Source of the DNA: Brevundimonas terrae
Lineage (GTDB): Bacteria; Pseudomonadota; Alphaproteobacteria; Caulobacterales; Caulobacteraceae
DNA: 64,000 nt
Direction of reading: 5' to 3'
NCBI RefSeq assembly: GCF_011761985.1
Contig: NZ_JAASQT010000002.1
Coordinates: 310,001-374,000 of the forward strand
Shown: one piece after another, positions 21,667 to 64,000 of the stretch
Layout: each line of letters starts with the position of its first letter
Numbering within the stretch: the first letter of the stretch is position 1
Made by a program: the position numbers and the translations under genes
The notes under the pieces: model-generated
What the model was told of the DNA's origin: nothing
Seen by the model: only the letters and a program-made list of their open reading frames with translations
Database searches by the model: none

Positions 21667-21771
21667 CACGTTCGGGTCTGAAATTGACCCATTCGATGTC
21701 ATGTTGTTTCAAAACAGGATGGCACGGGTTTTGGAAGGTTGACCCTAGTTCGAGCCGAGGGGGTTCGGGCG

Positions 21772-22455
21772 GTGTCGCACTTTGCGGCATGGGGAGCGGG
21801 ACCTTTGATCGAATTTCTGGGGCAACAGCGCCGTCATCGCGCCAATATTGTCACCTACGGTGCAAAGATCGCTGTGGGTGCCGTGAGCGCGGTCGCCATT
21901 CTGCTGGCGGCTAATATGGCCCAGGCCCACACCTCGGGATCGCCTGTTATCGGGCCGGATCCCAATCTGCCCACCATGCCGATCGGTGCCAATGCCATCG
22001 AAAGCCCGACGGGATTTGATGTGGCGCTAGAAGCGCGCATCCCTTCGCGCTGCGAGCTAGGACGTGGCGCGGATATCGATTTTGGCGAGTTGACGGGTGG
22101 TCTGAGCGCTGTCGCGCATGTGGGACTGGAATGCAACGTCCCGTTTGACCTGAATATTCGTGCCGCCAATGGGGGGTTAACCCACAAGTCCAAGCCGACT
22201 GGCGAGGGACCGTTCTCGGGACGCCTGGGTTACGGGCTCGGGATTGATGTGCCGGTTCTGGCACCGGTCGAAGGTCTGATGTCGGGCCGGTATGAAAGCC
22301 GCCAACTTCTGTCGGGCGTCACGCTGAGTAGCGCGGATGCCATCGCGAAGGGCGGAGCGATTTTGCGCTTCGAGACACGAGCCCCCGAGGGCGCGGGTCT
22401 TCTGGCGGGAGAGTATTCGGAATCTATAGTTCTGACGATTACGCCAAGAATGTAG
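21772..22455 (+). CDS. Spore-coat-U/pilin-like secreted protein
   Basis: About 227 residues. A hydrophobic export segment (KIAVGAVSAVAILLAANMAQA, cut after AQA) lies about 40 residues in, after a charged cytoplasmic stretch, so the signal is unusually internal. The mature part has the pilin-like layout: two cysteines (RCELG and LECNVPF), a strand-rich middle, and a C-terminal beta strand (SIVLTITPRM). I assign it to the SCPU/archaic chaperone-usher pilin group with moderate confidence. The start is uncertain: GTG at 21772 has GAGGGG before it; TTG at 21739 is also in frame. It opens the first pilus cluster. Confidence 0.62.
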   Translation: MSHFAAWGAGPLIEFLGQQRRHRANIVTYGAKIAVGAVSAVAILLAANMAQAHTSGSPVIGPDPNLPTMPIGANAIESPTGFDVALEARIPSRCELGRGADIDFGELTGGLSAVAHVGLECNVPFDLNIRAANGGLTHKSKPTGEGPFSGRLGYGLGIDVPVLAPVEGLMSGRYESRQLLSGVTLSSADAIAKGGAILRFETRAPEGAGLLAGEYSESIVLTITPRM

Positions 22456-22594: not shown

Positions 22595-23341
22595 ATGAAA
22601 GTTTCGGCTCTTCTTTCTGCGGCTGCTGTCGCTGCTCTGATCGCTTCGCCGGCAGCTGCTGGTTCCATCAACCAAGGTGAGTGGTTCTCGCACCTGTTCC
22701 AAACCCACGTTGACTCGCCTCCGTTCGCCGGTGCCAACCTGATCGACGCGCAAACCGCTGGTTCGCCGTGGTCGGCATGGCACTCGGTTGGTGCTTCGGT
22801 TGGCAACAACGGCACGGCTGCAGGCAATGACGGCGCGACCTTCACCCTGAAGGGCAATGTCACCAAGGATTGCTCGTTCTATTCGGGTTCGAGCACCAAC
22901 CAGACGCTCGATTTCGGCACTCTGGGCATCTACGCCTCGGACAATACCGGTCCGGCTGCTGCGTTTGACATGGTCGCTCCGGCGAACGTGACCGTCTATA
23001 CCAACCTGGCAGGCTGCAACACGGCGAACTCGGTGACCATCACCAAGAACAGCGCTGACGGCCTGATCAACGCGGGCAACACCGGCGGTTATGACAGCAA
23101 CGTGTTCCAGGCCAACCTGCCGTTCTCGGTTGAAGCCAAATACACCGCCGCTGCGCACAACTCGGTCGCCAACGGCAGCCAACAAACCCTGAGCGTGTCC
23201 TCGACCGCACTGAGCAACGTGGCCAACCACGGTGCATGGAAGTCGCCGTTCTCGCTGGCCGTGAACATTCCGGTCGCTTCGAAGGCTCTGCTGGCCGGTA
23301 ACTACGAAGGTACCGTCGCCGTCCAGATCCAAGCTTTCTAA
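22595..23341 (+). CDS. Chaperone-usher pilin, copy A
   Basis: A 248-residue secreted pilin. The signal peptide is residues 1-22 (ending SPAAA). About 47 residues unique to this copy follow (SINQGEWFSHLFQ...). From NNGTAAGNDGATF (bases 22805-23341) to the end it shares 537 bp with copies B and C, differing by about 9 and 12 bases by eye. This shared domain has two cysteines (KDCSFYSG, AGCNTANS), SCPU-like strands, and the C-terminal strand NYEGTVAVQIQAF expected to meet the chaperone. A GGATAGGAAA ribosome-site region precedes the ATG. A terminator-like hairpin follows. It is secreted by the periplasmic route for assembly at the usher. Confidence 0.85.
   Translation: MKVSALLSAAAVAALIASPAAAGSINQGEWFSHLFQTHVDSPPFAGANLIDAQTAGSPWSAWHSVGASVGNNGTAAGNDGATFTLKGNVTKDCSFYSGSSTNQTLDFGTLGIYASDNTGPAAAFDMVAPANVTVYTNLAGCNTANSVTITKNSADGLINAGNTGGYDSNVFQANLPFSVEAKYTAAAHNSVANGSQQTLSVSSTALSNVANHGAWKSPFSLAVNIPVASKALLAGNYEGTVAVQIQAF
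22805..23341 (+). repeat. 537-bp pilin core repeat, copy A
   Basis: The first of three almost identical direct repeats (others at 23708-24244 and 24550-25086). They begin at the codons for NNGTAAGN and end at the stop. All three are exactly 537 bp with no gaps. Confidence 0.95.
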
Positions 23342-23353
23342 GCAAGCTTAAGT

Positions 23354-23388
23354 ACGGGTGACGGAGTAAGGCTCCGTCACCCGTTTTC
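23354..23388 (+). terminator. Hairpin/terminator after pilin A
   Basis: ACGGGTGACGGAG (23354-23366) pairs perfectly with CTCCGTCACCCGT (23372-23384), followed by TTTT. It can end or attenuate transcription before pilin B. Confidence 0.85.
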
Positions 23389-23461
23389 TGATTGAAATCG
23401 GGCGGTAACAGCCCCAAATGGGGCCGGTAGAACCGGCTTCCGCGCACCGGAGACTACCAAA

Positions 23462-24244
23462 ATGAAGCGTTTCGCACTTCTTGCAGGCGTTGCTGCCCTC
23501 AGCGTCATGGCAACCTCGGCTTCGGCCCAGAACATGATGAACCGCGGCCAGTATGTAAACGGCGGTTCGGGCCAGATCGTTGGCACGTACAACCAGACGG
23601 GCTTCCTGAAGGCTGCACAAGGTCACACGCTGACGTCAGCCGATGATGTGAATTTTGCCAAGATCAACAACCAGTCGGTTTGGCTGGCCATCGGTTCGGC
23701 CGAAGGCAACAACGGCACGGCTGCAGGCAATGACGGCGCGACCTTCACGCTGAAGGGCAATGTCACCAAGGATTGCTCGTTCTATTCGGGTTCGAGCACC
23801 AACCAGACGCTCGATTTCGGCACTCTGGGCATCTACGCCTCGGACAATACCGGTCCGGCTGCTGCGTTTGACATGGTCGCTCCGGCGAACGTGACCGTCT
23901 ATACCAACCTGGCAGGCTGCAACACGGCGAACTCGGTGACCATCACCAAGAACAGCGCCGACGGCCTGATCAACGCGGGCAACACCGGTGGTTATGACAG
24001 CAACGTGTTCCAAGCCAACCTGCCGTTCTCGGTTGAAGCCAAATACACCGCCGCTGCACACAACTCGGTCGCCAACGGCAGCCAACAAACCCTGAGCGTG
24101 TCCTCGACCGCACTGAGCAACGTGGCCAACCACGGTGCATGGAAGTCGCCGTTCTCGCTGGCCGTGAGCATTCCGGTCGCTTCGAAGGCTCTGCTGGCCG
24201 GTAACTACGAAGGTACCGTCGCCGTCCAGATCCAGGCGTTCTGA
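23462..24244 (+). CDS. Chaperone-usher pilin, copy B
   Basis: A 260-residue pilin. Its signal peptide (MKRFALLAGVAALSVMATSASA) and the next 60 residues (QNMMNRGQYVNGG...NQSVWLAIGSAEG) have no visible similarity to copies A or C. From NNGTAAGN on, the protein matches copy A with a single change (N to S near the end). The shared domain carries the disulfide cysteines and the C-terminal chaperone-binding strand. It starts 120 bp after copy A, behind a terminator, so it probably has its own promoter or depends on read-through. The variable part may provide the donor strand or a surface-exposed tip. Confidence 0.85.
   Translation: MKRFALLAGVAALSVMATSASAQNMMNRGQYVNGGSGQIVGTYNQTGFLKAAQGHTLTSADDVNFAKINNQSVWLAIGSAEGNNGTAAGNDGATFTLKGNVTKDCSFYSGSSTNQTLDFGTLGIYASDNTGPAAAFDMVAPANVTVYTNLAGCNTANSVTITKNSADGLINAGNTGGYDSNVFQANLPFSVEAKYTAAAHNSVANGSQQTLSVSSTALSNVANHGAWKSPFSLAVSIPVASKALLAGNYEGTVAVQIQAF
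23708..24244 (+). repeat. 537-bp pilin core repeat, copy B
   Basis: Nearly identical to 22805-23341: about 9 base differences by eye, nearly all silent or in the last codons. Confidence 0.95.
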
Positions 24245-24260
24245 TCCGAGTAATGCTTAA

Positions 24261-24296
24261 GCGGGTGGCAGGCTTTAGGTTTGCCACCCGTCTCTT
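24261..24296 (+). terminator. Hairpin/terminator after pilin B
   Basis: CGGGTGGCA (24262-24270) pairs with TGCCACCCG (24282-24290), followed by TCTCTTT. The stem sequence differs from that after pilin A, so only the design is shared. Confidence 0.72.
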
Positions 24297-24366
24297 TCAA
24301 TCACCTATGGCTGGCGATTTGAGGCAAAGCGCTTCGATATCCGGCTCTCCAATCGAGAGATAAGAC

Positions 24367-25086
24367 ATGAAGCGTATTGCTTTGCTATCCGCCGTTGCCG
24401 TGGTTTCATTTTCTGGCGTGGCGAATGCCCAATCCGGCACATGGCATCTGACGGGCGAAAATAGCTCGTCTGGTTCGCAACCTTGGACGACATCTCAAGA
24501 CGACTCTGTCGCGTTCGGAGCTTGGGCTGCATTGTTCCAATACAGCCTGAACAACGGCACGGCTGCGGGCAATGACGGCGCGACCTTCACCCTGAAGGGC
24601 AATGTCACCAAGGATTGCTCGTTCTATTCGGGTTCGAGCACCAACCAGACGCTCGATTTCGGCACTCTGGGCATCTACGCCTCGGACAATACCGGTCCGG
24701 CTGCTGCGTTTGACATGGTCGCTCCGGCGAACGTGACCGTCTACACCAACCTGGCAGGCTGCAACACGGCGAACTCGGTGACCATCACCAAGAACAGCGC
24801 CAACGGCCTGATCAACTCGGGCAACACCGCCGGCTATGACAGCAACGTGTTCCAGGCCAACCTGCCGTTCTCGGTTGAGGCCAAATACACCGCTGCTGCG
24901 CACAACTCGGTCGCCAACGGCAGCCAACAAACCCTGAGCGTGTCCTCGACCGCACTGAGCAACGTGGCCAACCACGGTGCATGGAAGTCGCCGTTCTCGC
25001 TGGCCGTGAACATCCCGGTCGCTTCGAAGGCTCTGCTGGCCGGTAACTACGAAGGTACCGTCGCCGTTCAGATCCAAGCGTTCTGA
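24367..25086 (+). CDS. Chaperone-usher pilin, copy C
   Basis: A 239-residue pilin. The signal peptide (MKRIALLSAVAVVSFSGVANA) is followed by about 40 copy-specific residues rich in Ser, Trp and Gly (QSGTWHLTGENSSSGSQPW...). The shared core from NNGTAAGN to the stop differs from copy A at about 12 bases, three changing amino acids (D to N, A to S, G to A). It precedes the chaperone gene by 180 bp with a GC-rich hairpin between. The three unlike N-termini on one core argue for shuffling or gene conversion rather than simple triplication. Confidence 0.85.
   Translation: MKRIALLSAVAVVSFSGVANAQSGTWHLTGENSSSGSQPWTTSQDDSVAFGAWAALFQYSLNNGTAAGNDGATFTLKGNVTKDCSFYSGSSTNQTLDFGTLGIYASDNTGPAAAFDMVAPANVTVYTNLAGCNTANSVTITKNSANGLINSGNTAGYDSNVFQANLPFSVEAKYTAAAHNSVANGSQQTLSVSSTALSNVANHGAWKSPFSLAVNIPVASKALLAGNYEGTVAVQIQAF
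24550..25086 (+). repeat. 537-bp pilin core repeat, copy C
   Basis: Third copy of the pilin core, ungapped against the other two, with about 12 differences from copy A by eye. Confidence 0.95.
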
Positions 25087-25105: not shown

Positions 25106-25137
25106 TGCGCGCCCCGTTTCGGCGGGGCGCGTCTTTC
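25106..25137 (+). terminator. Hairpin between the pilins and the chaperone gene
   Basis: GCGCGCCCCG (25108-25116 region) pairs with CGGGGCGCG (25123-25131), followed by TCTTTCT. It would reduce read-through into chaperone and usher and so favour pilin mRNA. Confidence 0.72.
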
Positions 25138-25266: not shown

Positions 25267-26100
25267 ATGCCGTTTGCCATTCAATATTTGAACCGTTTTG
25301 CTGTGGGCCTTGCCGCAGTGGTAATCGGCGTTGCGAGTGTGACCGCTGTGGCGTGGGCCATGCGCGTGTCTCCGATGGTTTCGGAACTGACGACTTCGGG
25401 GGCCGGATCGACCGCGCGTATCGAAGTGGGAAATGTGGGCAGTGCTGCCCTGCCGTTTGAAACCCTGCTGACCCGCATGGAAGTGGATGCTGCGGGCAAT
25501 ATGGTCGAAACGCCTGCGGACGAAGATTTTCTGATTTTCCCGCCGCAAGGATTGGTGCCCGTCGGGGGGCGCCAGGTCGTGCGTGTGCAATGGGTTGGCG
25601 CTCAGGAGCTGCCGGCTTCGCAAGCCTATTATCTGTGGGTTCGTCAGTTGCCGGTTCAGACCGAGGCTCCGGATTCTGACACTGGCGGCACGGCTTCGAT
25701 CCAGGTTCTTTATACGATGAAGGCCTTGATCGTTGTGGCACCTCCGGGGGCCGAGCCGAACGTGCAACTTGTGGCGGCGACGCCTGCGATGGTGGCCCCG
25801 ATGGCCCCCGAGATTGATCCGGAACTGGGAACGGCGGAGGCTGCGCCTCTGACCCACGGTATCGAGGTCAAGGTGCGCAATACAGGGCGCCGTTATGCCT
25901 TGATGAGCGGTGCGAACTGGGTCGTCGAAGCCACCGATACGGCCGGTCAGCCCTTCATGCGCCAGTATACCGGTGATGAAATCTCGCAGAGTGTTGGCGT
26001 GGGTTATCTGCAACCGCTGGGTGGCGAGCGCACCTTCCAACTGCCGACCGAGACGCAACTGGATGGCACCAAGCCGATCAAGGTGCGGTTCACGCGATGA
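25267..26100 (+). CDS. Periplasmic fimbrial chaperone (PapD-like)
   Basis: A 277-residue two-domain chaperone that folds pilin subunits by donor-strand complementation and hands them to the usher. A hydrophobic export segment (FAVGLAAVVIGVASVTAVAWA) ends near residue 35. The first Ig-like domain shows RIEVGNVGSAALPFETLLTRM and the family motif DFLIFPPQGLVPVGGRQVVRV-type FPP(Q) stretch; YYLWVRQLPV follows. The second domain starts near residue 150. The stop overlaps the usher ATG (ATGA). The divergence from Pap/Fim types suggests the archaic (Csu-like) pathway. Confidence 0.9.
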   Translation: MPFAIQYLNRFAVGLAAVVIGVASVTAVAWAMRVSPMVSELTTSGAGSTARIEVGNVGSAALPFETLLTRMEVDAAGNMVETPADEDFLIFPPQGLVPVGGRQVVRVQWVGAQELPASQAYYLWVRQLPVQTEAPDSDTGGTASIQVLYTMKALIVVAPPGAEPNVQLVAATPAMVAPMAPEIDPELGTAEAAPLTHGIEVKVRNTGRRYALMSGANWVVEATDTAGQPFMRQYTGDEISQSVGVGYLQPLGGERTFQLPTETQLDGTKPIKVRFTR

Positions 26101-28622
26101 GCAGTATAGCCACACCAGCGCGTCTGCGTATGGCGGCTTCGGCGGCTGTGCTGCTGGCGATTGCGTTTCCGGCTGCGGCCCAAGAAGCCGTAACAGCGGA
26201 GACAGCGGAACAGGAAGCTCCGGCGCGTCCGAACATCAACCCTTATAACCGCGACATTGGCATGACTGTGCCGTTGAATTTCAACCGTCGCGTTCTGGGT
26301 GAGATGGATGTTCTGCTGACGAAAGACGATCGTTTCATCGTCTATTCGTCAGGTTTCAAGCGTCTAATCAACCCGTTGCTGACGGAAGAAGCTCAGGCCG
26401 AGATCGCAGCCATTCTGGGTGACGGCGAAAGCTTTAGCCCCGAAGACATCGCTAACAGCGGCATCCGTCTGGAATACGATCCGGCGCAATTGGCCGTGAT
26501 GGTGTTGCGGATTGATCCATCCAAACGGGCCATCGAAAACCTGTTTCAGGAAGGCAAGCCTGAAGAGCATGCGGCGGCACCGGAAAGCTTTTCGGCCTAT
26601 CTGAATACCAGCCTCGGTGTTTCGAAACGTCATAATGTCAGCGATATTCAGACGCCCAGCGTGTACCTGAACGGTGCTGTGCGATTGGGCGGTGTGGTGC
26701 TTGAGGCCGACTATCAGGGGCAGGAGACTTTCGGGACGGGCGACTATGAATTCAACCGTCGCTATGCCCGTCTGGTTTACGACGATCCCGAGAATTTTCG
26801 CCGCTGGTGGGCGGGTGATCTGGATACGGAAATCCGTGGCCGTCAAAGCTATGTGCAGATGGGTGGTGTGGGTGTAGCCCGACAGCGCCAGCGTTTCGAG
26901 AGCTTCCGCAACAGTGTGCTGTCCGGCAACCGTCAGGTTGTCCTGCAAGAAGGCTCGACGGTTCGGGTCATGCGCAATGGTGTGTTCGTGCGCGAGTTCC
27001 AGTTGGATGCGGGTCAGTACGACCTGTCCAACCTGCCGCTGGAAACCGGTTCCAACGATATCCAGTTGGAAATCCGTGACCAGTTGGGCCGTACCGAAAC
27101 CCTGAACTACAGCGCCTATCTGGACGCCATTGATCTGGATCCGGGCGATTACGAGTATGGCGCGTTTCTGGGCATGACCAGCAGCGGTACATTCGGGACG
27201 CCCAACTATGATGACGGCCAACTGGCGTTCAGCGGTTATTGGCGCAAGGCGTTCGAGAACCGTCCGGCTCTGGGGCTCGGGCTTCAGGCCAGTGAAGACA
27301 TCCAGACCCTGACGGGGCAAACCCAGTTCATTCTCAAGAATGGCAGCCGCCTGCGTCTGGACGGGGCGCTCAGCACCAATGCCGATGCGGGGCAGGGCTT
27401 TATGGCCGCGCTCGGTTTTGACCATTTTGTGGATCGTGGCGATGTGTACGATTCATGGGCCGTGGCACTGGAATATACGTCCGAAGATTTTTCCTCGATC
27501 GGCAATCCAACGGCCCAGAACGCGACCGAATGGTCGATGCAAGGGGCCTATACCCGACGTTTCAGCCAATACTGGATGGGCTCGCTGAGTGCGGCCTATC
27601 GCATTGGTCGCAATGCCAGCTTTGACGACTCATATAACGTCAACGCCTACAGCACCTATAATTTCACACCGGCCTGGGGTGTGCAGGTGGGCGTGGAATA
27701 TGCCGATTATGGCCTGCCGTTCGCCAGTAATTCCGAGGGCTTCGGCGTTACCTTCGCCCTGATCTGGACACCGCGTTTCGACCGGCGTGGCGAGGCGCGT
27801 TATAATTCGGCCCGCAATTCCGGTTCGGTGCGGTTCCAGCAATCTGGCGAAAACCGTGCAGGGGCCTTGGGCTATTCTCTGGCCTCGACCTATGATGACG
27901 GCCCTGCAAGCCTGTCGGCTCAGGTGGATTATGTCGGCAACCGCTTCGATGGTGCCTTGACCCATTCCTCCTTCGGTCAGGACTTCAACCGTGTAACCGA
28001 TCAGCAGGTTACGTCGCTGAGTGTCGGCTCGTCACTGGCCTTTACGGGCGGCAAGTTCGCGATTGGTCGCCGTATCTATGACAGCTTTGCCATCGTCGAT
28101 ACGCATGAATCGCTGGATGGACGCGATGCGATTGTCGGCGATAGCCTGGAAGGCGGCCGCTATAATTCGCGTAGCGGCGCTCTGGGTCCGGCACTGGCCA
28201 ATAATCTGAGCTCCTATGTGAACCAGTCGATCCGTTATGACGTGATCGATGTTCCAGCGGGCTATGACATTGGCGACGGCATCAAGCGGGTTCGTCCGGC
28301 CTATCGCAGCGGCTATGTCATCGTGGCCGGCAGTGATGCCTTTGTCTCGGCCATGGGCCGACTGGTGGGGCAGGGCAATATTCCCGCCAGCCTGATGTCG
28401 GGCCGTATCTTCTCGGTTGATGAACCGGATACCGAGCCTGAAATCTTCTTTACCAACTCGGTGGGCCGTTTTGCGATCCAGAAACTGAAGCCGGGTCATA
28501 CCTATCGGGTGGAGCTGTTCACCTCTTCGGCACAGGGCTTCCAGTTCAAGGTGCCGGAAGACAACGAGGGGCTGCTGGATCTCCAGACAGTTTCCTTGCC
28601 CATCATCATTACCGAGCAATGA
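26097..28622 (+). CDS. Outer-membrane usher
   Basis: An 841-residue usher that forms the outer-membrane pore and assembles pilins. The signal peptide ends at PAAAQ (about residue 29). The N-terminal domain (TVPLNFNRRVLGEMDVLL) binds chaperone-pilin complexes. The 24-strand barrel follows with FVREFQLDAGQYDLSNLPLE-like plug and barrel motifs typical of the FimD/PapC family. C-terminal beta domains include VGRFAIQKLKPGHTYRVELF. The length is close to other ushers (800-880). It is coupled by 4-bp overlaps to the chaperone before it and to a frame that leads into the tip-like gene. Confidence 0.93.
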   Translation: MSSIATPARLRMAASAAVLLAIAFPAAAQEAVTAETAEQEAPARPNINPYNRDIGMTVPLNFNRRVLGEMDVLLTKDDRFIVYSSGFKRLINPLLTEEAQAEIAAILGDGESFSPEDIANSGIRLEYDPAQLAVMVLRIDPSKRAIENLFQEGKPEEHAAAPESFSAYLNTSLGVSKRHNVSDIQTPSVYLNGAVRLGGVVLEADYQGQETFGTGDYEFNRRYARLVYDDPENFRRWWAGDLDTEIRGRQSYVQMGGVGVARQRQRFESFRNSVLSGNRQVVLQEGSTVRVMRNGVFVREFQLDAGQYDLSNLPLETGSNDIQLEIRDQLGRTETLNYSAYLDAIDLDPGDYEYGAFLGMTSSGTFGTPNYDDGQLAFSGYWRKAFENRPALGLGLQASEDIQTLTGQTQFILKNGSRLRLDGALSTNADAGQGFMAALGFDHFVDRGDVYDSWAVALEYTSEDFSSIGNPTAQNATEWSMQGAYTRRFSQYWMGSLSAAYRIGRNASFDDSYNVNAYSTYNFTPAWGVQVGVEYADYGLPFASNSEGFGVTFALIWTPRFDRRGEARYNSARNSGSVRFQQSGENRAGALGYSLASTYDDGPASLSAQVDYVGNRFDGALTHSSFGQDFNRVTDQQVTSLSVGSSLAFTGGKFAIGRRIYDSFAIVDTHESLDGRDAIVGDSLEGGRYNSRSGALGPALANNLSSYVNQSIRYDVIDVPAGYDIGDGIKRVRPAYRSGYVIVAGSDAFVSAMGRLVGQGNIPASLMSGRIFSVDEPDTEPEIFFTNSVGRFAIQKLKPGHTYRVELFTSSAQGFQFKVPEDNEGLLDLQTVSLPIIITEQ

Positions 28623-28639
28623 CAGGAGGGTCCGTCACA

Positions 28640-29545
28640 ATGATCCGCTCCGCTTTACGCCGAAAGATAATCGCGGCCCTTGCTGTTGTGGCAGGTCTGG
28701 CTCTGTGGGCTCCGCAAGCTCTGGCACAAGACAAATGCGATCTGACCATGACCACCCAGTCGCAATGGGTGATCCGTCATGATCCGTTCGGCGATAACCA
28801 GTTGTCGTTGCCGTTTGAAATCCAGTTTTCGAATGCGGGCAGGACGCCCTGCGTTGGTCGTCTGGAAGTGACCTCCATAGGCAACAAGCGCGTGCTGGAA
28901 AGTCGCACCAGCGCCCAGACCGTGCCTTTCAGTCTGCGCGATGAAACGAACCGCAATAACCTGACGCCCGGATCTTCGGAAAATCTGGTTGGTCGCACCA
29001 CGCTTGTGCGTGCAGGAAGCACCGCAACCGGCCGTATTACTTTTGCGGTTACACCGCCTGCGGACATTGCAGCCGGTCGCTATACCCAGACGGTGACGGT
29101 GCAGTTCCGTATGCCCAATGGTGAAATCCATGCGGCAACCGATGTGACGCTGGTGTTCGAGGTCACGCCGTCGCTGATGATCGGTCTGGCGGGGGAGTTC
29201 ACTCGCGTAAATGGAACGCCGACGCTGAATCTGGGCGATCTGACCCAGAACGGCGTGGTGCCTCTAAATGCCAAGGTCTATGTGCGATCCAGCAGTGGTT
29301 ATCAGGTGACCGTCACGTCCGAGAACCGTGGTCTGTTGCTGCACGAGCAACCGGGCTGGGCCATTCCCTATGGTCTGCGTCTGGGCGGGACCGAAATCAA
29401 TCTGGGCAGCCCGCACATCATGACCAGCCGTGAAGCCCGTGCCCGCGTGGATGATTATCCGCTGCGTATCGATGTGCGCGATATCGGTGGCAAACGTGCG
29501 GGTCGCTATCGGGATATTCTCCGCTTTACCGTGACGGCGATCTAA
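28640..29545 (+). CDS. Pilus tip/adhesin-like secreted protein
   Basis: About 301 residues. The signal peptide ends at QALAQ (about residue 30). Two strand-rich domains follow: residues 30-180 with cysteines in DKCDLTM and RTPCVGRL, and residues 185-301 ending in the strand YRDILRFTVTAI. The two-domain size and the position after the usher fit the tip adhesin of an archaic chaperone-usher pilus (CsuE-like role). The ATG at 28640 is chosen because CAGGAGGG lies 9 bases upstream; the overlapping ATG at 28619 would put that site inside the gene. Ligand unknown. Confidence 0.72.
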   Translation: MIRSALRRKIIAALAVVAGLALWAPQALAQDKCDLTMTTQSQWVIRHDPFGDNQLSLPFEIQFSNAGRTPCVGRLEVTSIGNKRVLESRTSAQTVPFSLRDETNRNNLTPGSSENLVGRTTLVRAGSTATGRITFAVTPPADIAAGRYTQTVTVQFRMPNGEIHAATDVTLVFEVTPSLMIGLAGEFTRVNGTPTLNLGDLTQNGVVPLNAKVYVRSSSGYQVTVTSENRGLLLHEQPGWAIPYGLRLGGTEINLGSPHIMTSREARARVDDYPLRIDVRDIGGKRAGRYRDILRFTVTAI

Positions 29546-29616: not shown

Positions 29617-30030
29617 TCAGATCGGCTGGATCGTCAGGGCCAGAATCAGCGGCTGTTCCAGATTTACGTTCTGGAACTGGTAGGAAACCGTGCGGATGGT
29701 GGCCATGTTCGACTGGCGCAGAACCTGTTGGCCGCTGGAGGAAAGCTCGACGGCCTGATCATTATAGATCATGCGGGCGCTTTCACCGGTGCCAAGCTGA
29801 CGATACTGGGCGCTGACGGTATAGCCGCCCGGATTGTTGCAGGCCTCGATGACAGCGCCGGTTGCGCCTTCTTCTGCGGTCACTGTGCGGTCAGGGCGCA
29901 CCCAGCAGGATACCGGAACATGCGCGCGGACACGGAAGGTGCCGTTGGCGGTGTCCTTGGCTTGAACAGTGGCTGGCATGGCCATGAGGGCCACAGCCAT
30001 CGATACGGCGGCTAAAGCGAATCTCTTCAT
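29617..30030 (-). CDS. Secreted SCPU/pilin-like protein
   Basis: A 137-residue secreted protein with signal peptide MKRFALAAVSMAVALMAMPATVQA. The mature part has two cysteines (VSCWVR and EACNNPGG), the GTFRVRAHVPVSCWV opening usual for SCPU/pilin-like domains, and a final strand (PLILALTIQPI). I start it at the ATG at 30030, with AGAGGT upstream, rather than the frame's first codon at 30063. It is convergent with the tip gene, so it is not in the main pilus transcript, but its fold suggests an accessory or regulated pilus subunit. Confidence 0.68.
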   Translation of the reverse strand: MKRFALAAVSMAVALMAMPATVQAKDTANGTFRVRAHVPVSCWVRPDRTVTAEEGATGAVIEACNNPGGYTVSAQYRQLGTGESARMIYNDQAVELSSSGQQVLRQSNMATIRTVSYQFQNVNLEQPLILALTIQPI

Positions 30031-30194
30031 GGTTACAGACCTCTTAATGACGCTTCTCGTCATGCAATCGTTGTGTCTGTTCTAGCCAGCAGCGGTTAAT
30101 CTGAGGCGATCAGACACGCTTAGCGCTCTTTTAAAGCTTAGGGTCAACAACGCCTTAACCTAGATCAAAGCGATCCGAGCGCGTTTGTGGAATG

Positions 30195-62086: not shown

Positions 62087-62629
62087 ATGAAAGCAGTTGG
62101 TATTGTATCCGGTCTTGCGGTTCTCGCGGCACTTACAGCCGGTGGCGCTGCCCAGGCCGAAAATCTGTCCGTCAACACGACTGTCGCACCGTATTGCGGT
62201 ATCCGTCTTGCAAACGTCTCCAGCGGCACCGCTTCGGTAGCTCATGAAGCCGAACAAATGGTCGCCAATCTGGAACTGGCCTGCAACACCGGCGGCACGG
62301 CCCAGTTGGTCGTCAACCCGCTGAACGGCGACTTCAAAAATGGCAACAACCTGATCAACTATGCCATGCGTTTTGACGCTGCTGACAATGCGTTCGACAT
62401 CAACACCACCGATGCCTATCCCGGTGATGCTGAAGGTTCGGGCAAGTTTACCCGCAACAAAGTCGGCTATAGCCAATCTCTGGCTAATGGCAGTGCCGCA
62501 CAGTTCTATCTGAACGTGAACGTGGCTGCACCTGGACCGGCACCGTTGGGTCAAACCTTCTATCCAGCCAATGCGGCTCCGGCTGGTACCTACAACGAGT
62601 CCTTCTCCTTCGAACTGTCGGCCATCTAA
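62087..62629 (+). CDS. Spore-coat-U/pilin-like subunit of the second pilus cluster
   Basis: A 180-residue secreted pilin. The signal peptide ends AAQA (about residue 24). The mature part begins ENLSVNTTVAPYCGIRLA and has the paired cysteine ELACNTGG, then a C-terminal strand YNESFSFELSAI, the chaperone-binding end. It is shorter than pilins A-C and not of their shared-core type. GGGAGGAAA precedes the ATG. It is followed by a hairpin and then chaperone and usher genes, so it is the main subunit of an independent archaic chaperone-usher system. Confidence 0.82.
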   Translation: MKAVGIVSGLAVLAALTAGGAAQAENLSVNTTVAPYCGIRLANVSSGTASVAHEAEQMVANLELACNTGGTAQLVVNPLNGDFKNGNNLINYAMRFDAADNAFDINTTDAYPGDAEGSGKFTRNKVGYSQSLANGSAAQFYLNVNVAAPGPAPLGQTFYPANAAPAGTYNESFSFELSAI

Positions 62630-62636
62630 GGCCAAG

Positions 62637-62670
62637 CGGCGGTCGGGTTGTGCAGCCCGACCGCCTTTTC
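62637..62670 (+). terminator. Hairpin between pilin and chaperone of the second cluster
   Basis: GGCGGTCGGG (62638-62647) pairs with CCCGACCGCC (62656-62665), followed by TTTTCTTT. Same position and likely role as the hairpin before the first cluster's chaperone. Confidence 0.82.
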
Positions 62671-62687
62671 TTTCTGGGGTCAATTCC

Positions 62688-63431
62688 ATGAAAAGAGCAG
62701 CTATTGTCGCATGCGCCGGTCTGGTGACCGCCGCCTGCCTCGTTGTGCCGTCCGTGGTGGATGCGCACGAAGTCCAGCCCATGATTGCCACGGTCGCGCC
62801 GTCAGGCTCGAACGCGAATTATCGGCTGATGATCCGTAATACGGATGCGATGCCCATTACGCTGGAAATCAATCCCTATCGCGTGACGATCACCGATGAA
62901 GGGACGGCGGTCCGGACCCCCGAGGATGCCGATGTCATTCTGTTTCCACCCCAGATCATTGTCCAGCCGGGCGGAGAGCAAGCGATCCAGATCCGCTATG
63001 TGGGCGATCCCTCGGTCACCGAAGGGCGGCTCTATGCGGTTGTGGTCAGCCAGTTGCCTGTCGATTTCACGACCCTGAACAATAGTGACAACACCCAGAC
63101 ACAGGTCAAAATCGGCTTTGATTTTGTCAGCCACATGGTGGTCCAGCCGCCTTCGGCCAAAGCCAATCTGGTCATCGGGCCGACGGTCCGTCAGGCCAAT
63201 AATGATCTGGCATTCGATGTCAGCAATACGGGTGATGGCGTGGCATTGTTGCGGACAGCGGAATGGACGCTGGTGCCACAAAGCGGCGCACCTGTTGTGG
63301 TTGATGCAGAGAATGTCGCGTTCGGCGCATTCGGGGCCATTCTCCCCGGGGGCAAACGGAGCATGACAATTCCTGCGGCTCAGGCTGCGGCGATGACCGG
63401 TAATGTGACGGTCGCCATCCATTTGAAATGA
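62688..63431 (+). CDS. Periplasmic fimbrial chaperone of the second cluster
   Basis: A 247-residue PapD-like chaperone. The signal peptide ends at VVDA (about residue 25). The first domain shows NYRLMIRNTDAMPITLEINPYRV, then the family motif DADVILFPPQIIVQPGGEQAIQIRYVGD. YAVVVSQLPVDF and FDFVSHMVVQPPSA connect to the second domain. ATG 62688 (MKRAAIVACAG) is preferred to the frame's first codon at 62571, which overlaps the pilin gene. It matches the first cluster's chaperone in layout but not closely in sequence. Confidence 0.9.
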   Translation: MKRAAIVACAGLVTAACLVVPSVVDAHEVQPMIATVAPSGSNANYRLMIRNTDAMPITLEINPYRVTITDEGTAVRTPEDADVILFPPQIIVQPGGEQAIQIRYVGDPSVTEGRLYAVVVSQLPVDFTTLNNSDNTQTQVKIGFDFVSHMVVQPPSAKANLVIGPTVRQANNDLAFDVSNTGDGVALLRTAEWTLVPQSGAPVVVDAENVAFGAFGAILPGGKRSMTIPAAQAAAMTGNVTVAIHLK

Positions 63432-63443
63432 ACGGATACAAAC

Positions 63444-64000
63444 ATGTCCGTTCAGCACATGACGGCAGGGGGGCGTAGCGCCTATCTGGGTTGCTCGCAT
63501 GCTGTTCTCATGATGACGCTTTTTCTGGCCGGAACTGCCCAGGCAGCGACCGGTGCGGAAAATAACGATCCCGACGCACCTATCATTACGAACCGTTATT
63601 CGGACGGGTCGGTGTCGTCGGGCGGGCCGGAGCTGGACGCCGCACTGTCCGGCTCTCACACGGGCGTTCCGGCTGAGGCGGGTGTCAGCTTTGCGCGTTC
63701 TCGCCCCAGGACCGCGGCAGCGGCCCCGACCACCGGAACGCCGGCCCGATCAGATGACGCGCTGGCCAATAAGGTCATGCCTGTTGCTGACGAAGGCACC
63801 CCTGTTGCTAGCGCGCCCGATGTGGTTGCACCTGTCGCGGTGCAGACGACTGCGCCGGGGACGCCACGGGTCTATACCTCGATTGATGTGCCGCTGACGC
63901 TGAATGGCCGCTTTGTGGGCATGGTCAGTGCGGATGTGGATGTGCAGGGCAATGGTCTTGTGGATGCGCGGCGTTTTTTTGATCTGATCCAGCCGGTGGT
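63444..64000 (+). CDS. Outer-membrane usher, N-terminal part (runs off the window)
   Basis: The frame opens at ATG 63444 (MSVQHMTAGGRSAYL) and has no stop by the end of the window. A hydrophobic export segment (residues about 16-32, ending AQA) is followed by a Pro/Ala/Thr-rich linker of about 100 residues, then VPLTLNGRFVGMVSADVDV and DARRFFDLIQPV, which align with the chaperone-binding N-terminal domain of the first usher (VPLNFNRRVLGEMDVLL...RLINPL). So it is the second cluster's usher. The linker before that domain is longer than usual. Confidence 0.82.
   Translation, partial: MSVQHMTAGGRSAYLGCSHAVLMMTLFLAGTAQAATGAENNDPDAPIITNRYSDGSVSSGGPELDAALSGSHTGVPAEAGVSFARSRPRTAAAAPTTGTPARSDDALANKVMPVADEGTPVASAPDVVAPVAVQTTAPGTPRVYTSIDVPLTLNGRFVGMVSADVDVQGNGLVDARRFFDLIQPV

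Follow-up and report, generated by a model that had tools for sequence, protein, structure and literature searches.

A chaperone-usher pilus operon of Brevundimonas whose three pilins combine one near-identical core with distinct N-terminal modules

Layout of the operon

The window, a stretch of 64,000 nucleotides from Brevundimonas terrae, contains a chaperone-usher pilus operon in which a small pilin-like gene is followed by pilins A, B, and C, a chaperone, an usher, and a larger last subunit (Table 1). Each pilin is made up of a head, which comprises the signal peptide and a mature variable module, and a core. In most relatives the copy of the first gene has, by eye, no long module ahead of the first cysteine, and the window copy has a longer start.

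Table 1. Genes and predicted features of the pilus operon, in window coordinates
Feature	Position	Strand	Remarks
First gene, small pilin-like protein	21739..22455	+	aligned by profile with the pilin core
Pilin A, 248 aa	22595..23341	+	head (signal plus module) 22595-22804; core 22805-23341
Probable donor strand FTLKGNV, pilin A core	22841..22861	+	by analogy with CsuA/B; three codons 5' of the first conserved Cys (22871-22873)
Terminator-like hairpin 3' of pilin A	23354..23384	+	terminator scan and RNA folding
Pilin B, 260 aa	23462..24244	+	head 23462-23707; core 23708-24244
Probable donor strand FTLKGNV, pilin B core	23744..23764	+	suggested by analogy with CsuA/B
Hairpin 3' of pilin B	24261..24291	+	RNA z -4.3; absent from the terminator scan list
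Pilin C, 239 aa	24367..25086	+	head 24367-24549, without clear relative; core 24550-25086
Probable donor strand FTLKGNV, pilin C core	24586..24606	+	suggested by analogy with CsuA/B
Terminator-like hairpin 3' of pilin C	25107..25132	+	terminator scan and RNA folding
Periplasmic pilus chaperone, PapD-like fold	25267..26100	+	top structure matches archaic CsuC and CFA/I CfaA, Z 14.8 each
Outer-membrane usher	26097..28622	+	Pfam Usher E 4.5e-5, below curated cut-off
Probable tip subunit, last operon gene	28619..29545	+	SCPU E 6.5e-4, below cut-off; role suggested by position and size

The AF2 model of the chaperone has a pLDDT of 82.6, and ranks 1 to 45 of its structure matches are pilus chaperones. 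The Pfam match of the chaperone to PapD_N lies below the cut-off (E 0.0017), and against solved structures its profile gives only weak matches, to EcpB (E 0.12) and FaeE (E 0.57). The usher matches its Pfam family over residues 287-734 of 841 with 22.9 bits, under the cut-off of 27.1 bits, and NCBIfam gave nothing above the cut-off for the seven proteins searched.

The hairpins that follow pilins A, B, and C were compared with shuffled sequences and have z values of -6.5, -4.3, and -2.6, respectively. A terminator scan lists 9 sites in the region, where 4.4 would be expected, and two of the three pilin hairpins are among them. Across six genomes a stem-loop is predicted 3' of all 15 pilins, the weakest after copy 2 of G102; this larger set was folded without shuffles.

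The three cores are 537 bp each and align without gaps, which bears out the initial annotation in its description of equal-length, near-identical cores joined to unlike N-terminal parts. They differ at 9 (A and B), 13 (A and C), and 16 (B and C) bases, the same order as the 9-12 first counted but slightly higher, and the same pairs differ by 1, 3, and 4 amino acids. The mature N-terminal parts have pairwise identities of 14-28%, and local alignment against shuffles detects no relation among them (z -0.5 to 1.9). The signal peptides, however, are of one kind, with identities of 41-52%, so that the earlier statement that the N-terminal regions share almost nothing is true of the mature part only. 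The junction is as sharp as had been described: in the window genome homology begins at the codons for NNG and ends at the stop codon. Head C has a G+C content of 0.54 against 0.61 in its own core and lacks a clear relative, and it is possibly a recent acquisition. One search of the window genome with pilin A as query found no further pilin copies besides the three complete genes, and antigenic-variation cassettes were rejected on this result.

The module ahead of the probable donor strand

Structural modeling of the pilin gives a weak model (mean pLDDT 58.7) in which residues 1-94 are unstructured. The core of this model has middling fold matches to CfaE (Z 7.5), CsuA/B (Z 6.3 and 6.1), and CupE1 (Z 6.0), and a plain Foldseek search with the model returned no match at E 0.001 or better. 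The pilin profile had 0 matches up to E 10 among the sequences of solved structures, and the Pfam SCPU domain matches 3 of 31 pilins, with a best E of 2.5e-4. Across the 31 pilins, V101, C105, and C153 (pilin B numbering) are invariant, and F95, L97, and G99 are at least 90% conserved. Residues F95, L97, G99, and V101 form an alternating hydrophobic pattern a short way N-terminal to C105, seen at the level of sequence alone.

The donor residues of CsuA/B are Val8, Leu10, and Ile12, with Cys16 at the start of strand A, and in CupE1 a donor strand of 13 residues projects from the sheet in which the Cys41-Cys85 bridge lies. Background taken from papers, here and below, draws on passages of PMC9452303, PMC10104325, PMC6053082, PMC5700814, and PMC4654587. 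When Cys105 of pilin B is placed on Cys16 of CsuA/B, Leu97, Gly99, and Val101 fall at the donor positions. The first aligned residue is 105 in the pilin model, 14-17 in the CsuA/B chains, and 42 in CupE1. The pre-cysteine strand of the first-gene family (23 sequences) is also aligned by profile with the FTLKGNV segment of the pilins. From the comparison with CsuA/B and CupE1, and with residue 105 as the first to align, the donor strand is likely to be FTLKGNV, within the constant core and just ahead of the first conserved cysteine. The suggestion that the variable part itself occupies the place of a donor strand is not borne out by this comparison.

With the donor strand inside the core, the variable part becomes an additional element, probably an extra extension of 40-80 residues that precedes the donor strand and would serve for display on a polymerising unit shared by all copies. 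In 34 pilins the module spans 40-82 residues, with 0 cysteines in 2053 residues and 123 charged residues in total. The modules are rich in Gly, Ser, and Asn and are weakly charged. The module of G051, which stands outside the 34-pilin count, is much shorter. Self-association as in the Saf pilus, described in passages of PMC5700814, was considered as a model for the heads and was not used.

Histories of heads and cores across Brevundimonas

With one genome per species in the comparison set, the usher is present at E 1e-200 or better in 27 of 131 genomes of the genus, the window genome included. Pilin profile matches at E 1e-8 occur in 25 of 348 sampled genomes of the family, belonging to 3 of 22 genera. 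Fifteen of the 27 usher genomes have one pilin in an unbroken locus, six have two or three intact pilins, and the remaining six are interrupted by a contig end at or within the pilin genes. Draft assemblies broken in this way are G068, G077, G048, G100, G124, and G023. Pilin copy numbers in drafts are therefore unreliable, and loci of this kind should be read with caution in draft assemblies, which are broken there and may also be collapsed.

Near-identical cores with divergent heads are found in all six genomes with at least two intact pilins, the window genome and five relatives. In each of the 12 within-genome pairs the cores differ at 0-16 of 531-537 bases (97-100% identity), and the mature heads are 14-42% identical. 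This count leaves out G068 and G124, where second copies are cut by contig ends; the cut copies fit the pattern, with 7 differences in 324 bases and 3 in 82, respectively. Pilin copies with related heads were noted in G080 (L092:5720-6508), outside the usher operon, and in G068 (L071:3867-4790), on a separate short contig, both with different neighbour genes.

A total of 37 pilins was collected, of which those of G051, G039, and G129 were left out of the split into head and core, the boundary not being recognisable. Signal cleavage was set by a simple motif for the head comparison and the module counts. For the trees, 13 of 34 pilins were dropped by a hand-made list, which left 21 rows for the heads and 19 for the cores, as two of the cores were cut and too short to use. 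The nearest relatives of head B are copy 2 of G124 (z 24.8) and copy 2 of G024 (z 8.8), and that of head A is copy 1 of G108 (z 13.0), with further counterparts in G007 and in copy 1 of G024. Against the heads of their own paralogues, A and B reach z values of at most 1.9. In G024 and G124 the counterparts of A and B come in an unchanged gene order. Other heads recur among G080, G102, G068, G048, and G108, and head C has no clear relative among the compared heads (best z 3.1).

The cores have a different history. Those of the window genome and those of G024 each form a clade (support 100/98), and an AU test rejects a clade of the cores of pilin B and of G024 copy 2 (p 2e-55). For the heads, AU tests reject a same-genome clade in every one of the 5 genomes examined (p 0.011 to 2e-41; G058 was left out). 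The three cores of G080 encode one protein and the three of G102 another, 3 residues apart (4 nonsynonymous changes), and the heads within each of these genomes are far apart despite the uniform core proteins. The edges of homology also shift by genome, reaching 27 nt beyond the 5' edge in G058 and 19 nt past the stop codon in one G080 pair, as is expected from conversion and not from a fixed junction site. Heads with cross-species counterparts in matching order, together with cores that track the genome, argue for conversion that is limited by loss of homology.

Several observations weaken this picture or limit its reach. In the group of G080, G102, and G068 the core differences within genomes (up to 13 of 531 in G102) equal those between species (~2-3%), which suggests that conversion is not continuous in that group, and the cores of G068 do not form a clade. 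The two cores of G108 differ at 12 bases, about 8 of them amino-acid-changing, and their clade has a support of only 50/10. Two heads of G058 are related to each other (z 10.8; tree support 84/93) and their cores are identical, so recent duplication occurs as well. Resolution in the head tree is poor: of its 18 inner branches 3 are starred and 12 open, and the very long branch of head C is joined weakly (71/90) to head A of the same genome. Position is not always kept either, since one head that G102 has inside the operon is found elsewhere in G080.

Two explanations can be set aside with little hesitation. That one core was collapsed in assembly and copied into three genes might be suspected from the contig ends at the pilin genes of 6 of 27 usher genomes, but the copies are not identical and the window genome's contig is 755 kb long. 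The same pattern appears in three single-contig genomes (G080, G102, and G108), on which ground the artefact was rejected. In G080 one copy stands on the same contig at a distance of 208 kb from the operon, with a core that differs from the other two at 1 and 3 of 531 bases. With this copy and the pattern in all six multi-copy genomes, the artefact has a negligible probability. Hardly more credible is that the likeness of the cores is due to purifying selection on the protein alone. Such selection would agree with amino-acid changes in the cores that are mostly outnumbered by silent ones, but silent core sites are homogenised too, which protein-level selection does not explain. The core dS between paralogues is 0-0.10, against 0.57-0.58 between the window genome and G024 (usher dS 1.36), which refutes the explanation. 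The core protein also differs between species, with 66% identity between the window genome and G024 and 56% between G024 and G108.

The choice offered by the initial annotation was between gene conversion that holds the core constant and repeated replacement of the 5' part, in which a recently tripled core would have had new heads pasted onto it. Replacement would fit head C, with no clear relative and its G+C below that of the core, and a related head that G102 carries within the operon and G080 outside it. It is largely refuted for heads A and B, whose counterparts in G024 and G124 come in matching order; the recurrence of other heads across G080, G102, G068, and G108 also speaks against it, and the heads are thus the stable part. 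We regard replacement as unlikely overall, although head C may have arisen in this way. Alternatively, each genome may have undergone independent recent tandem duplications followed by very fast divergence of the heads only, without conversion, an alternative that passages of PMC6053082 also raise for tandem flagellin copies. The related heads and identical cores of G058 would agree with this, but head silent sites are far more diverged (dS 0.57 to saturated, signal included, where alignable) than core silent sites. In the remaining genomes the heads cluster with those of other species, or a same-genome clade is rejected for them, and the remote copy of G080 is not tandem, so duplication without conversion appears quite improbable. 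Gene conversion confined to the core, rather than repeated 5' replacement, would then be the best reading, and it is well supported by the compared sequences through the homogenised silent sites, the occurrence in 6 of 6 multi-copy genomes, and the conflicting histories of heads and cores.

Possible function, comparable systems, and neighbouring genes

In this reading the paralogous pilins bear different, long-lived N-terminal modules, and conversion between their genes would keep homogenising the 3' 530 bp, including that of a distant chromosomal copy in one relative. The compared pattern suggests that such recombination stops where homology runs out, at the unrelated heads or past the stop codon. 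Besides the donor strand FTLKGNV, the homogenised part most likely contains the acceptor groove and both conserved cysteines, and with these in common every pilin could polymerise with every other. The variable extension would emerge where the donor strand leaves the neighbouring subunit and would thus be displayed on the fibre. Cells may build mixed or alternative fibres that have one scaffold and different surface modules, and the hairpin after each pilin gene may set the relative amounts of the pilins. Copolymerisation with exchangeable display modules is plausible on this reasoning. Variation of the pilus surface had also been proposed; nothing points to a rapid form of it for heads A and B, which keep their order from species to species. 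To the whole explanation, core-limited conversion with a shared donor strand and displayed modules, we give a probability of roughly 0.7, jointly with the assignment of the three pilins as the array of major pilins in a divergent chaperone-usher pilus of archaic-like type.

A further idea, to which we lend somewhat less than even odds, is that of a "universal coupler" pilin, in which conversion, also between distant loci, would hold the donor strand and groove identical so that modules could be added, kept, and mixed in one fibre without loss of assembly. If true, chaperone-usher pili would here have a modular system of surface display, and recombination would serve to maintain compatibility rather than to generate variation. 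If copolymerisation is true, the fibre would be a natural modular pilus, and the question of why chaperone-usher subunits stay compatible while diversifying would become testable.

The operon resembles those of the archaic chaperone-usher pili, Csu of Acinetobacter and CupE of Pseudomonas, in its small pilins, PapD-like chaperone, usher, and larger last subunit. The pilins themselves share with Csu and CupE a conserved cysteine pair and an alternating hydrophobic strand just before the first cysteine, and their fold matches to CsuA/B and CupE1 are middling. Unlike Csu and CupE, the Brevundimonas pilins have a module of ~40-80 residues ahead of the probable donor strand, occur in up to three copies with one homogenised core, and belong with proteins that fall below Pfam cut-offs. 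Chaperone-usher pili and concerted evolution are both already known, tandem flagellins included. Among the papers listed by searches of the open-access literature, none deals with this operon or with conversion restricted to one domain of chaperone-usher pilins, although such a report may exist elsewhere.

Passages of PMC6053082 describe tuf and the tandem flagellin genes fla as within-genome paralogues that are closer to each other than to their cross-species counterparts, silent sites included. The Brevundimonas pilins are alike in this respect, silent sites again included, although the likeness is unclear inside the group of G080, G102, and G068. In contrast to tuf and fla, only the 3' two thirds of the pilin gene is homogenised and the heads stay distinct. 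In the clustered protocadherins of vertebrates, some domains are homogenised while others stay diverse. These are tandem paralogues under gene conversion (abstract of PMC1852091). Protocadherins differ from the Brevundimonas pilins in being eukaryotic, unrelated proteins with a different gene structure. Where pilins undergo gene conversion, the best-known outcome is variation, and in Neisseria pilE/pilS conversion from silent cassettes changes the expressed pilin. Action of gene conversion on these pilin genes is described in the abstract of PMC4023411. Unlike pilE/pilS, the Brevundimonas copies are all complete genes, and conversion would remove differences between them. Its role here appears to be the opposite, in that it keeps the polymerising part the same in every copy and the separate surface modules endure.

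Other pilin-like genes were also noted. Just 3' of the operon, on the minus strand, a 148-aa apparently secreted protein (29617-30063) resembles a short pilin by eye; it has no family match above the cut-off, and hhalign of the pilin profile against it is not significant. A second chaperone-usher cluster (L134) occupies 62087-64000 and continues past the end of the window. Its usher (G000:C2:373738-376182, in the window genome) is 29% identical to the first, and in its short pilin ~12 residues, by eye, separate the apparent signal cleavage site from the first cysteine. When aligned to the pilin profile by hhalign, the second-cluster pilin gives a weak match (probability 2), and the pilin of G203 gives a good score with an implausible alignment around the first cysteine. 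The 148-aa protein, the second-cluster pilin, and the G203 pilin have, by eye, ~12-19 mature residues before the first cysteine.
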